From Pseudomonadales bacterium (GTDB lineage Bacteria > Pseudomonadota > Gammaproteobacteria > Pseudomonadales > Azotimanducaceae): 64,000 bases of DNA. The stretch's first letter is position 1; every line of letters begins with the position of its first letter. Positions 3,151-28,193 of this stretch are shown in pieces. The notes under the pieces are model-generated. The model was not told where the DNA came from. It did no database searches and worked only from the letters and a program-made list of their open reading frames with translations. The position numbers and the translations under genes were made by a program. The DNA is taken from NCBI GenBank assembly GCA_017854255.1, contig JAFMIA010000001.1:33886-97885 (forward strand), given 5' to 3'.

Positions 3151-4569
3151 TTAATCTCCAACCTTTGTCTTAGCCGATTTTTTAACAAGACCCGGTGCAT
3201 CCAGCACCTTTTCAGGACGCGGCCAAGCGTCAATGTTACGCTGACGGCCCCGCGCGACGCCGAGCGCAGCATCTGGAATCACGCCAGTAATGGTCGACCC
3301 TGCGCCAATGGTCGCGCCTTGACCCACGGTCACGGGTGCAACAAGGGCGGTGTTGGAGCCGACAAACACCTCATCTTCTAAAATGGTCTGCCACTTATTC
3401 ACGCCATCATAATTACAGGTGATGGTGCCCGCGCCAATGTTGACCCGGGCGCCAATGGTGGCGTCGCCCAAGTAACTTAAATGACTGGCCTTGCTGCCCG
3501 GCCCCATTGTGGTTTGCTTCACTTCGACAAAATTGCCAATCGCCACGCCAGCACCTAATACCGCGCCCGGTCGTAATCTGGCATAGGGTCCAACCTGACA
3601 GTCTTGGGCAAGACTTGCACCTTCCAGCGATGAATGCGATTTTATCAGGCTGTTATCCCCAACCACGCTATTTTTAATCACACTCCCAGCTTCGATCACA
3701 ACGCCATGACCAATCTGACACGGACCTTCAAGGACAGTATTCACATCCAGCACCACGTCACGACCAAAGCTCACAGCACCCCGAATATCAACCCTCGCCG
3801 GATCCAACATCCGAACGCCCGCACGCATCAATTGCTGCGCTTGTCGGCGTTGGAAAAACCGCTCCGCTGCGGCGAGCTGAACCAGGTCATTCACGCCACT
3901 GACCGCCTCAGCCTGATCGGTCGTTACAGAAGCAACCGTCAGGCCTTGGTGCACCGCAATCGAGATGATATCCGTCAGGTAATACTCCCCTTGCCCATTA
4001 TCATTCGATAACGGTGCCAAGAGGCCCGGCAGTAAGCCTGGGTTAATTCTGAAAATGCCCGTATTGATCTCAGTTATGCTGCGCTCGGCTGCCGTTGCAT
4101 CTTTATCCTCAACAATCCCGAGGACCTGCCCTTCCGCATTACGTTGAATCCGGCCATAGCCTGCGGGGTTTTGTAAATTAACGGTGAGCACCGCAACGTC
4201 CGCTGGATCCTCAAATAAAGGCTGAAGCGTTTCTCGCGCCAGGAGCGGTACATCACCCAACAACACCAGCACCGCAGCATCGCCGTTGATGAATGGCGCC
4301 GCTTGTTGCACGGCGTGACCGGTGCCGAGCTGTTCTGTTTGAACCACCCAATTCAAATCACCCTGATCTTCGATAGCGGCTTTCAGGCCAGCATGGTCTT
4401 CTGAAACCACCAAATGGGTTTTGGTCGCCTTCAGGGCCCGCGCAGTTGAAACCACGTGGGCAATCATCGGCGCGCCAGCAATCGGCTGAAGCATTTTAGG
4501 GACCAAAGTCTTCATGCGAGTGCCTTTGCCGGCAGCTAAGATACAAATTTCGAGGGGCGTATTCATCAT
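3151..4569 (-). CDS. glmU: Bifunctional GlcNAc-1-P uridyltransferase / GlcN-1-P acetyltransferase
   Basis: Carries out the last two steps of UDP-GlcNAc synthesis in the cytoplasm. The N-terminal pyrophosphorylase domain has the signature LAAGKGTRMKTLVPKMLQ near residue 11. The C-terminal left-handed beta-helix (about 250-455) shows repeated hexapeptides (VIEAGSVIKNSVVGDNSLIK, GNFVEVKQ, ATIGARVNIGAGTITCNYDG) and the acetyltransferase ARGRQRNI end. Length (472) is normal. Two ATGs are adjacent (4569 and 4566) and the ribosome binding site is weak. It lies downstream of atpC in the same direction, 159 nt away, and upstream of glmS. Confidence 0.97.
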   Translation of the reverse strand: MMNTPLEICILAAGKGTRMKTLVPKMLQPIAGAPMIAHVVSTARALKATKTHLVVSEDHAGLKAAIEDQGDLNWVVQTEQLGTGHAVQQAAPFINGDAAVLVLLGDVPLLARETLQPLFEDPADVAVLTVNLQNPAGYGRIQRNAEGQVLGIVEDKDATAAERSITEINTGIFRINPGLLPGLLAPLSNDNGQGEYYLTDIISIAVHQGLTVASVTTDQAEAVSGVNDLVQLAAAERFFQRRQAQQLMRAGVRMLDPARVDIRGAVSFGRDVVLDVNTVLEGPCQIGHGVVIEAGSVIKNSVVGDNSLIKSHSSLEGASLAQDCQVGPYARLRPGAVLGAGVAIGNFVEVKQTTMGPGSKASHLSYLGDATIGARVNIGAGTITCNYDGVNKWQTILEDEVFVGSNTALVAPVTVGQGATIGAGSTITGVIPDAALGVARGRQRNIDAWPRPEKVLDAPGLVKKSAKTKVGD

Positions 4570-20800: not shown

Positions 20801-20804
20801 CTTG

Positions 20805-22172
20805 ATGAGCGATAAGAGTAGTAAAGTTGTGGTGTCCTCGATTTGGCAAAATTGTTTATCTCGCTTAGAAACTGAGCTCACTGCTCAGCAATACAATACC
20901 TGGATTAAACCGTTACAACTTGTCGGTACCACTGACGACGGCGTGGTTTATGCGCCGAATAAGTATATTCTTGATACGGTTGAGCGCCAATTCTTAGTCC
21001 GGATCAAGGCAGTGCTCCTTGAATCCGGTATGCAAACCGTTGCGCTTAAGATAGGAAGCCAACGAGGCGAAAACCGCTCTGATCCCAGACCCAGTACGCC
21101 TAAAACGGCTCGGCAGAACAGTTTTTCTGAACGAGAAGCCTTTTATCCACTCCTTGAGCTCAATAAATCATTTACGTTTGATTCCTTTGTCGGTGGGCGC
21201 TCGAACGAGATGGCCAGAGCGGCGGCGATCCAGGTCTCAGAAAACGTGGGCGGATCCTCATACAACCCGTTGTTGTTGTATGGTGGGGTCGGTCTTGGCA
21301 AAACCCACTTAATGCATGCTGTTGGCAACGCGATTGCGGAGCGGCATCCTGAATTGAAAGTGGCGTACATGTATTCCCAGCGCTTCATGGAAGATATGGT
21401 CCGGGCAATTGAGCACGGCGCAATGTCTGAGTTCACGCAATATTATCGCTCAGTCGATGTGTTACTGATGGATGACATCCAATTTCTAGCAAAAGGTTCT
21501 AAAAGCCAAGAAGAATTCTTTCATGTTTTCAATCGGTTACAAGAAGATGGGCGTCAAATCGTGTTGACGTGTGATCGGTATCCTAAAGAAATCCAAGGCC
21601 TTGAAGAGCGGTTGGAAAGCCGGTTCGTTTGGGGCATGACGGCCGCGGTTGAGCCGCCAGAGCTGGAAACGAGAGTGGCTATATTATTGAAAAAAGCTGA
21701 GCGTGAGGCGGTCTATATCCCCTCTGATGCCGCTTTTTTTATCGCCGAGCGCGTTCGATCGAATGTCCGTGAGTTAGAAGGTGCGTTAAGGCGAGTTATT
21801 GCCAATGCTCGATTTGCTGGGCGACCGATATCGATTGACCAAGTGAAGTCTGCGCTGCGGGATTTGATTGCGATCCAGGCCCGTCAGGTTGGCATCGATA
21901 ATATCCAGAAGACCGTGGCTGACTATTACAAACTTCGAATGAGTGATCTGCTCTCGAAAAAGCGGAATCGATCCTTAGCAAGGCCGCGACAAGTCGCAAT
22001 GGCGCTTTCAAAGGAACTGACAAACCACAGTTTGCCAGAAATTGGGGACGCGTTTGGCGGTAGAGACCACACAACCGTTTTGCATGCCTGTCGAAAAGTC
22101 GAAGAATTGAGGGAAATGAATCCGGAAATTAAAGATGACTATCGAAACTTGCGACGGATTTTAACCAGTTAA
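20805..22172 (+). CDS. dnaA: Chromosomal replication initiator DnaA
   Basis: AAA+ ATPase that opens oriC and regulates its own gene. I use the ATG at 20805 ([22 protein letters not shown]); a TTG directly before it is less likely. Domain I (about 1-85) is followed by a short linker. Domain III has Walker [11 protein letters not shown] and Walker [11 protein letters not shown]. Domain IV ends with the DNA-binding signature [18 protein letters not shown]. 455 residues, normal. It is followed by dnaN after 198 nt, a spacer in which I see no DnaA boxes. Confidence 0.97.
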
Positions 22173-22370: not shown

Positions 22371-23489
22371 ATGAAATTCTCCCTCAATCGATCAGATTTG
22401 CTAGAACCATTGTCGAAAGTGGTGAGCGTGCTTGAAAAACGACAAACGCTACCGATTTTGTCGCATGTTTTGGTTGTGGTGAATCAGCAAGGGATTACCC
22501 TCACGGCAACCGATCAAGAAGTGGAGCTGCAGACTCAGATTGGGTTTGACGGTGGTAGCCTCAATATTGAGGCAGAAGGTGGCTGCGCCTTGCCTGGTCG
22601 AAAGCTCTTGGAGATTTGTAAGCATTTACCTGCAGACGCCCGGCTAGATTTTAGGCGGCGCGATAAACATGTGGTCTTGAGCAGCGGTGCCTTCGAGTCC
22701 CAGTTTTCAACGCTCCCCGCCGAAGACTTTCCAAATATTGATGGGCAAGGCCAAGCGATACAGTCTTTTCGTATTGAAACGCAGCCGTTTCGACAAATGT
22801 TGGCTAAGACGGTTTTTGCCATGGCGCAACAAGATGTCCGTTATTTTTTTAATGGCATGCTGTTTGAACTAAGCGAAGGCGCGGTGCGTTTGGTGGCAAC
22901 GAATGGCCAAAGGTTGGCTGTTGTAAGCAGACAGGTTCAGCATGAAGGCGCGTTACAGGGTAGGCCGATCGTTCCGAGAAAAGGTGTTTTGGAATTGGTT
23001 AAATTGTTGGACGAGGTGGATACCGAGGTGACCTTGTCATTTACGGAGAACTGCCTGTTGGTTGAGATGACCGGCTGCCGATTCCTTTCAAAGTTGATCG
23101 ATGGCGAGTATCCGGATTACGAGAAGGCGATTCCAACTGGGTCTGACAAGCACTTTTCTTGTGATCGCCAGGCGTTTCGGGAAGCGTTAATTCGGACGGC
23201 GGTCATGTCGAATGAGGTGTATAAAAACGTTAAATTATCGCTTGAGACAGGTCGGTTGTCTTTGTTTACCAATAACCCGCTACAAGAACAGGCGGAAGAA
23301 ACGCTGGCGGTTATGTATGAGGGCGACGACTTAGAGATTGGGTTCAATGTACACTTCTTGATTGAGGCTTTGAATGCGGTGGGAAGTGACGTCGTGCAGG
23401 TCGCGCTGTCAGGACAAACAAGTCCTTGTTTGATAACGGACCCCGAAGAAGAGCAGGCTCAGTTTGTCATTAGCCCAATGGTTATATAG
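22371..23489 (+). CDS. Divergent sliding-clamp paralogue (first of two DnaN genes)
   Basis: Full-length beta clamp (372 residues, three clamp domains), intact and clearly homologous to the following gene, roughly two-fifths identical by eye. Fold landmarks are kept (RQTLPIL, FSTLPAEDFP, QQDVRYF, VPRKGVLEL, TNNP, EIGFNVHFL). By alignment to E. coli numbering, the partner-binding cleft is rebuilt: L155F (F160), D173N (N178), H175Q (Q180), R246K (K252), V247A (A253), S346P (P352), M362S (S368), R365V, L366I. The C-terminus reads FVISPMVI instead of the usual YVxMPMRL. Dimer-interface positions also differ (L108F, I272V, L273M). Probably a specialised clamp with different or few partners. It occupies the usual dnaN place, 198 nt after dnaA. 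Confidence 0.93.
   Translation: MKFSLNRSDLLEPLSKVVSVLEKRQTLPILSHVLVVVNQQGITLTATDQEVELQTQIGFDGGSLNIEAEGGCALPGRKLLEICKHLPADARLDFRRRDKHVVLSSGAFESQFSTLPAEDFPNIDGQGQAIQSFRIETQPFRQMLAKTVFAMAQQDVRYFFNGMLFELSEGAVRLVATNGQRLAVVSRQVQHEGALQGRPIVPRKGVLELVKLLDEVDTEVTLSFTENCLLVEMTGCRFLSKLIDGEYPDYEKAIPTGSDKHFSCDRQAFREALIRTAVMSNEVYKNVKLSLETGRLSLFTNNPLQEQAEETLAVMYEGDDLEIGFNVHFLIEALNAVGSDVVQVALSGQTSPCLITDPEEEQAQFVISPMVI

Positions 23490-24698: not shown

Positions 24699-28193
<3,495 letters not shown>

Follow-up and report, generated by a model that had tools for sequence, protein, structure and literature searches.

Gene organization of the dnaA-recF region

Sliding clamps are rings that hold polymerases and repair enzymes on DNA. 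We have analyzed a window of 64 kb (the whole stretch of DNA considered here, 64,000 nucleotides) from a metagenome-assembled genome of 3.36 Mb that is 98% complete. The origin-side cluster of this window contains the usual set of genes and one extra gene, a second clamp gene here called N1, which lies between dnaA and the canonical dnaN, here called N2. The genes of the cluster are as follows.

20802..22172, + strand: dnaA, upstream neighbour of N1
22371..23489, + strand: N1, second beta sliding clamp (DnaN paralogue, PF00712) with a rebuilt peptide cleft, 372 aa
23595..24698, + strand: N2, canonical dnaN (beta clamp), DnaN homologue, 367 aa
24695..25783, + strand: recF, next gene downstream; the order dnaA-N1-N2-recF is conserved
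25776..28193, + strand: gyrB, recognised from its translation

N1 and N2 are the only dnaN genes found in this genome. Both match PF00712 (DNA_pol3_beta), with scores of 92.8 bits for N1 and 138.1 bits for N2 against a curated cut-off of 24.4, which places N1 in the DnaN fold family. N1 is 44% identical to N2, and its identity to N2 and to Pseudomonas aeruginosa DnaN lies between 42 and 44%. The gap between dnaA and N1 is 198 bp in the window, 8-18 bp in many relatives, and has a median of 48 bp. The only genes recognised in the 64 kb, judging by ORF lengths and translations, are housekeeping genes, and no antibiotic biosynthetic cluster was seen near N1.

The AlphaFold2 model of N1 (pLDDT 89.8, pTM 0.86) has the three-domain clamp fold, and its nearest solved structures are those of P. 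aeruginosa DnaN (TM 0.95 to 6pth/6ams). Residues used by the E. coli clamp for DNA contact or loading are R24, Q149, R152, R197 and K198 (PMC5042465). Q149, R152 and K198 are present in all 43 N1 sequences and R197 in 42 of them, R24 is represented by R or K in 41, and K12 is lost.

Distribution and phylogeny

In about 40 metagenome-assembled genomes, which belong to nine genera of one gammaproteobacterial family, single contigs carry the tandem arrangement dnaA-N1-N2-recF. The tandem pair is absent from the other genera of this family and was not found in other families in a 294-genome sample of the order, in which two genomes of family f24 (G269 and G412) had two clamp hits each. When about 85,000 species genomes were scanned for two peptide patterns of N1, 41 matches were confirmed, all in records of uncultured Gammaproteobacteria/Pseudomonadales or Proteobacteria, three of which carry OM182 or K189A clade names. 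No cultured bearer of N1 was found; all named members are metagenome-assembled genomes. An assembly artefact was rejected, since the same arrangement is seen on long contigs from many independent studies. A viral or phage origin was also rejected: the viral collections held no contig with N1 motifs, phage clamps are at most 37% identical, and the position in the dnaA operon is fixed.

In a maximum-likelihood tree of 102 sequences, N1 forms one clade with 100/100 support, separate from the canonical clamps and not within their clade. After removal of the cleft and interface columns the N1 clade still received an SH-aLRT value of 99, and a grouping driven by convergence in the cleft was rejected on this basis. 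The N1 branch attaches beside the canonical clamps of the sub-clade that carries it, and the simplest account is therefore one duplication in the ancestor of this sub-clade. Several species with a single clamp are nested among the N2 sequences (G097; G175/G176; G177/G028; G189/G190/G200). In each of them one contig shows dnaA followed by the only dnaN and then by recF, and they are thus read as losses, of which there were about four, mostly in small genomes. The repeated loss of N1 implies that its job is dispensable. The third-position GC of N1 follows that of the host genome, which is consistent with vertical inheritance.

Elsewhere in the family, the single clamp of genera g8 and g14 (G021, G027, G069 and others) is unusually divergent. 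Its identity to N1 is 26-29% in the two cases listed, far under that of other family members.

Substitutions in the peptide-binding pocket

The clamp-binding pocket is regarded as practically unchanging across bacterial clamps, and almost all known clients dock there. Residues are numbered here after the beta clamp of E. coli K-12 (NC_000913), and the pocket is defined as the 18 residues listed in a review (PMC11139829). The first-pass annotation of the window had proposed that nine cleft residues of N1 are replaced (L155F, D173N, H175Q, R246K, V247A, S346P, M362S, R365V and L366I) and that the neighbouring DnaN is canonical at all of these sites save for R365K. The alignment to E. coli beta bears out both statements. 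Of the 18 pocket residues, 8 depart from the E. coli residue in N1 and 2 in N2 (R365K and V344N). N1 also has differences that had not been listed: F241Y, K277V, E298L, R103A, R105E, R96H and E301Q. The pocket residues it retains are R152, T172, G174, R176, L177, P242, V360, P363 and M364. The cleft substitutions are located as follows.

22848..22850, + strand: F160 of N1 (E. coli L155F), subsite I; F in 42 of 43 N1, L in nearly all canonical clamps
22902..22910, + strand: N178-G179-Q180 (D173N, G174, H175Q); N in 43 of 43 and Q in 42 of 43 N1, D and H in all canonical clamps
23109..23111, + strand: Y247 (F241Y), adjoining pocket residue P242; in 42 of 43 N1
23124..23129, + strand: K252-A253 (R246K, V247A), subsite I; A in 42 of 43 N1
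23217..23219, + strand: V283 (E. coli K277); M, L, V, T or I in 43 of 43 N1, K in all canonical clamps but one
23424..23426, + strand: P352 (S346P); A or P in all N1
23472..23486, + strand: C-terminus S368-P-M-V371-I372 (M362S, R365V, L366I); S in 42 of 43 N1, residue 365 M, V or I in 41 of 43

The pocket residues conserved in canonical DnaN, L155, H175, V247 and M362 among them, are replaced in 42 or 43 of the 43 N1 sequences. N1 is thus a member of the DnaN fold family that differs from a canonical orthologue on two counts, its pocket and its clade. The R246K change is restricted by genus (R in 28 N1, K in 11), and canonical clamps, too, vary at position 365, which is R or K in them. In E. 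coli, H175 bridges subsites I and II of the pocket (PMC11139829) and M362 is a mobile residue between the two subsites (PMC11139829, PMC10817943). Both bridging residues are replaced in N1, by Q and S respectively.

Sites were counted as fixed and switched if at least 90% of the N1 sequences (42-44) had one residue and at least 90% of 59 canonical clamps another. Exactly six of 366 sites fall in this class: L155F, D173N, H175Q, F241Y, V247A and M362S. Four of them lie inside the published 18-residue pocket (one-sided Fisher p = 5.9e-5; p = 0.0015 when restricted to conserved sites), and the remaining two adjoin pocket residues in sequence. A looser definition of a switched site gave p = 0.03 with the same pocket, and a test with a broadly chosen cleft set gave p = 4.5e-5. 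At a further group of sites N1 has left the canonical residue with no single replacement: 49, 193, K277 (M/L/V/T), E298 (L/Q/M), S346 (A/P) and 347. Within N1 the mean entropy is 0.55 in the cleft and 1.49 elsewhere, and the six exact residues of the pocket region are held, nearly invariant, across nine genera. Such low variability would fit a pocket that binds a ligand, unlike one freed from constraint.

N1 evolves faster than N2 (patristic ratio 2.37). Its dN/dS is 0.03-0.13, with 0.01-0.06 for N2, and its reading frame is open in about 40 genomes; by these sequence measures purifying selection on N1 is shown. Taken together, the near-invariant new pocket, the low dN/dS and the kept fold indicate that the pocket has been rebuilt and maintained, and is not decaying. 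The suggestion that the cleft was altered selectively while the ring fold was kept accordingly holds: the predicted fold and most DNA-contact residues are retained, and the change is fixed throughout the clade under purifying selection.

The dimer interface

Three changes at the dimer interface (L108F, I272V and L273M) had also been proposed. They are real in the N1 of the window, although they are no general trait of N1, being confined to the sub-group of the window (7 of 43 sequences, plus scattered cases). The interface change found throughout the clade is the loss of E298, which forms an ion pair with K74 in E. coli (PMC11139829).

22704..22706, + strand: F112 of N1 (E. coli L108F), dimer interface; in 7 of 43 N1, part of the window's genus
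23202..23207, + strand: V278-M279 (I272V, L273M), dimer interface; same sub-group as L108F
23280..23282, + strand: L304 (E. coli E298), acidic interface residue; L, Q, M, F or N in 43 of 43 N1

Scored on the alignment and not on a structure, the mean number kept of the six ion pairs published in PMC11139829 is 5.9 for N2-N2, 4.6 for N2-N1, 4.1 for N1-N2 and 3.1 for N1-N1. In the window's genus, N1 domain 1 set against N2 domain 3 has two to three like-charge pairs (R103A/E and R105E against E304, D301 and E303), and the N1-N1 interface has at most one. Within N1, L108F occurs together with I272V and L273M, and R105E with E301Q, while N2 keeps L/I/L at the former sites and R or K at 105. The like-charge counts and the joint change of R105E and E301Q favour N1 homodimers in this genus; for the other genera they do not decide the matter. 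In genera other than that of the window the hydrophobic interface has not changed, and most genomes retain four to six of the six ion pairs at the hetero-interfaces.

The N2 of the window's genus has E301D (E in most other genera), alongside R105E and E301Q in N1. Going by sequence, this may be an interface adjustment that separates the two clamps.

Client motifs, partner genes and expression

It had been suggested to look for proteins with a changed clamp-binding motif that co-occur with N1. No such protein was found among six known clients, and delta, DinB/Pol IV, MutS, Hda, DnaE1 and ImuB display no motif change linked to N1 when species with and without it are compared. The motifs are of the NSLSLF/NSMSLF type in delta, the QLxLF type at the C-termini of DinB, the QSDLF type in MutS, the N-terminal QLxL type in Hda, the DLFG type in DnaE1 and the LF type in ImuB; those of Hda and MutS were not recovered from all genomes. 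Since the motifs of these six clients are unchanged, N2 most likely serves them. All 31 genomes with a match have a single clamp-loader delta, whose [LM]SLF plug is unchanged in nearly all, and a second clamp loader is rejected on this count.

Several polymerases were considered as co-occurring partners. DnaE2 and ImuB were rejected, as each is found in species that have N1 and in species that lack it; PolB is missing from the genus to which the window belongs; and DinB tracks N1 just loosely. PolB (DNA polymerase II) was not detected in five members of the window's genus g1 (G000, G001, G003, G007 and G013) and is present in most other N1-bearing genera. As a separate observation, over G000, G001, G003, G193, G192 and G097, a distance of 13-28 kb separates imuB from dnaE2 in several genomes of the N1 sub-clade, and in the window's genome the two genes are on different contigs; in relatives with a single clamp, for example G104, they lie near each other.

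In the window the gap between dnaA and N1 has no LexA-like site, and about 40 genomes gave only two weak CTG-N10-CAG matches. An SOS-inducible clamp was rejected, as nearly all dnaA-N1 gaps are without such a box. N1 mostly follows dnaA directly, and this position together with the missing box makes constitutive co-expression look likelier than induction by damage. Lower translation of N1 was rejected too, its anti-Shine-Dalgarno energies showing no overall difference.

Comparison with other clamps

PCNA paralogues, such as the heterotrimers of Crenarchaeota, PCNA1/2 of Thermococcus and the eukaryotic 9-1-1 complex, belong to a different clamp family and share labour or form hetero-rings; to N1 they offer a works-like analogy of paralogous clamps only. 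N1 resembles the canonical DnaN of E. coli and P. aeruginosa in predicted fold, length, most DNA-contact residues and operon position, and differs from it by the replaced cleft (H175 and M362 included), the lost E298 and its coexistence with a canonical clamp.

Bacillus anthracis DnaN-2, proposed to support replication and not all repair (PMC3290774), is like N1, going by its description, in being a dispensable additional clamp encoded on the chromosome, with a likeness of about 40% to the main clamp and possibly fewer clients; it belongs to a different phylum and presumably arose independently. GriR and MypR are self-resistance DnaN proteins of griselimycin and mycoplanecin producers, and antibiotics of the griselimycin type occupy the clamp pocket, where they touch M362 and R365 (PMC10817943). 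Set beside N1 from their description, they too are second DnaN proteins whose antibiotics bind the same cleft, although they sit in antibiotic clusters near transposases, whereas N1 is in the dnaA operon. An engineered heterodimer of E. coli beta-C and beta, which has a single canonical cleft, loads and works (PMC3022782); beta-C is an artificial deletion of residues 362-366, whereas N1 has a new conserved cleft. In the open-access literature no report was found of the N1 clade or of a clamp with the N1 residues.

A candidate function for N1

Our preferred reading, to which we give a probability of about 0.5, is that N1 has specialised as a second clamp whose ligand specificity is altered. It would go back to a single event in which dnaN was duplicated in tandem within the dnaA operon, in the common ancestor of a sub-clade belonging to one family of marine gammaproteobacteria. 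The cleft was rebuilt once and has stayed near-invariant, while the rest of N1 diverged faster than the normal clamp. The rebuilt cleft comprises the six fixed changes, S346A/P and, at 277 and 365, residues that are mostly hydrophobic. Lacking the divide of M362 and H175, and with a reshaped hydrophobic hole, the pocket would prefer a ligand other than the QLxLF type. N1 probably still forms a ring on DNA, is probably produced along with the normal transcripts, outside the SOS response, and would recruit one or more separate clients that N2 does not serve; less surely, in the window's genus it may act as a homodimer. The first-pass annotation had offered three alternatives: binding of a different motif, a clamp that may compete while recruiting none of the usual partners, and heterodimers with DnaN. 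The evidence supports a change to a different ligand over decay. A stricter version, to which we give somewhat less credence, holds that the two clamps would have orthogonal docking codes, with N2 reading the universal QLxLF-type motif, N1 a different motif, and each having its own clients.

Three points speak against an altered ligand. The six known clients include none whose motif is new and would match, N1 was lost about four times, and the single delta with its unchanged plug leaves the loading of a clamp with an altered subsite I unexplained. The last of these would be met most simply by a canonical cleft in the same ring, that is by an N1-N2 heterodimer acting as a natural one-cleft clamp, in which the N2 cleft takes the loader and one canonical client and the N1 side is silent or holds a different client, thereby regulating polymerases and repair proteins per ring. 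The two genes are always adjacent, with gaps that are usually short, one cleft is enough for loading, replication and viability in E. coli (PMC3022782), and outside the window's genus the interfaces would permit the pairing. We nevertheless think heterodimers unlikely, as a silent cleft is not expected to be invariant, and in the window's genus both the like-charge pairs between N1 domain 1 and N2 domain 3 and the joint substitutions confined to N1 run the other way.

The retained pocket residues and the unchanged motifs of the known clients would also suit a clamp that still takes the ordinary motif, weakened or filtered so that it binds some canonical clients, for which B. anthracis dnaN-2 is the proposed precedent (PMC3290774); weakening, however, would permit many residues, yet six exact ones are fixed in nine genera, and we rate this a little below the heterodimer. 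Lower still stands an inhibitor-resistant spare clamp, which like GriR/MypR would evade pocket-docking peptide antibiotics and serve canonical clients with unchanged motifs. The antibiotics hydrogen-bond Arg365 and displace Met362, both of which N1 replaces, and the producers do have a second dnaN (PMC10817943). What makes this improbable is that N1 lies in the dnaA operon, that the 64-kb window showed no biosynthetic cluster, and that N1 is inherited vertically in a whole clade with few losses and not in a patchy way. A decaying duplicate under relaxed constraint would account for the longer branches of N1, its repeated loss and one degenerate copy (G187), but is effectively excluded by the dN/dS values, the open frames in about 40 genomes and the invariant new cleft.

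With an altered ligand as the preferred reading, a duplicate clamp whose pocket is different and equally conserved would be a natural experiment on a change of docking code. The N1 clade could offer a handle on how clamps choose their clients, as in toolbelt and polymerase-switch models, and a route to new replication or repair clients. N1 is possibly also a natural precedent for resistance to clamp-targeting antibiotics. Orthogonal docking of N1 and N2, if true, would be a bacterial counterpart of the division of labour between PCNA and 9-1-1.

The most divergent N1 is that of G187 (locus L084, N1 at 3387-4484), which has 155Y, 175Y, 362T and 365K. The genome is 2.1 Mb in size, with no detectable Y-family polymerase or DnaE2, and this copy may have lost its N1 client or be in early decay.
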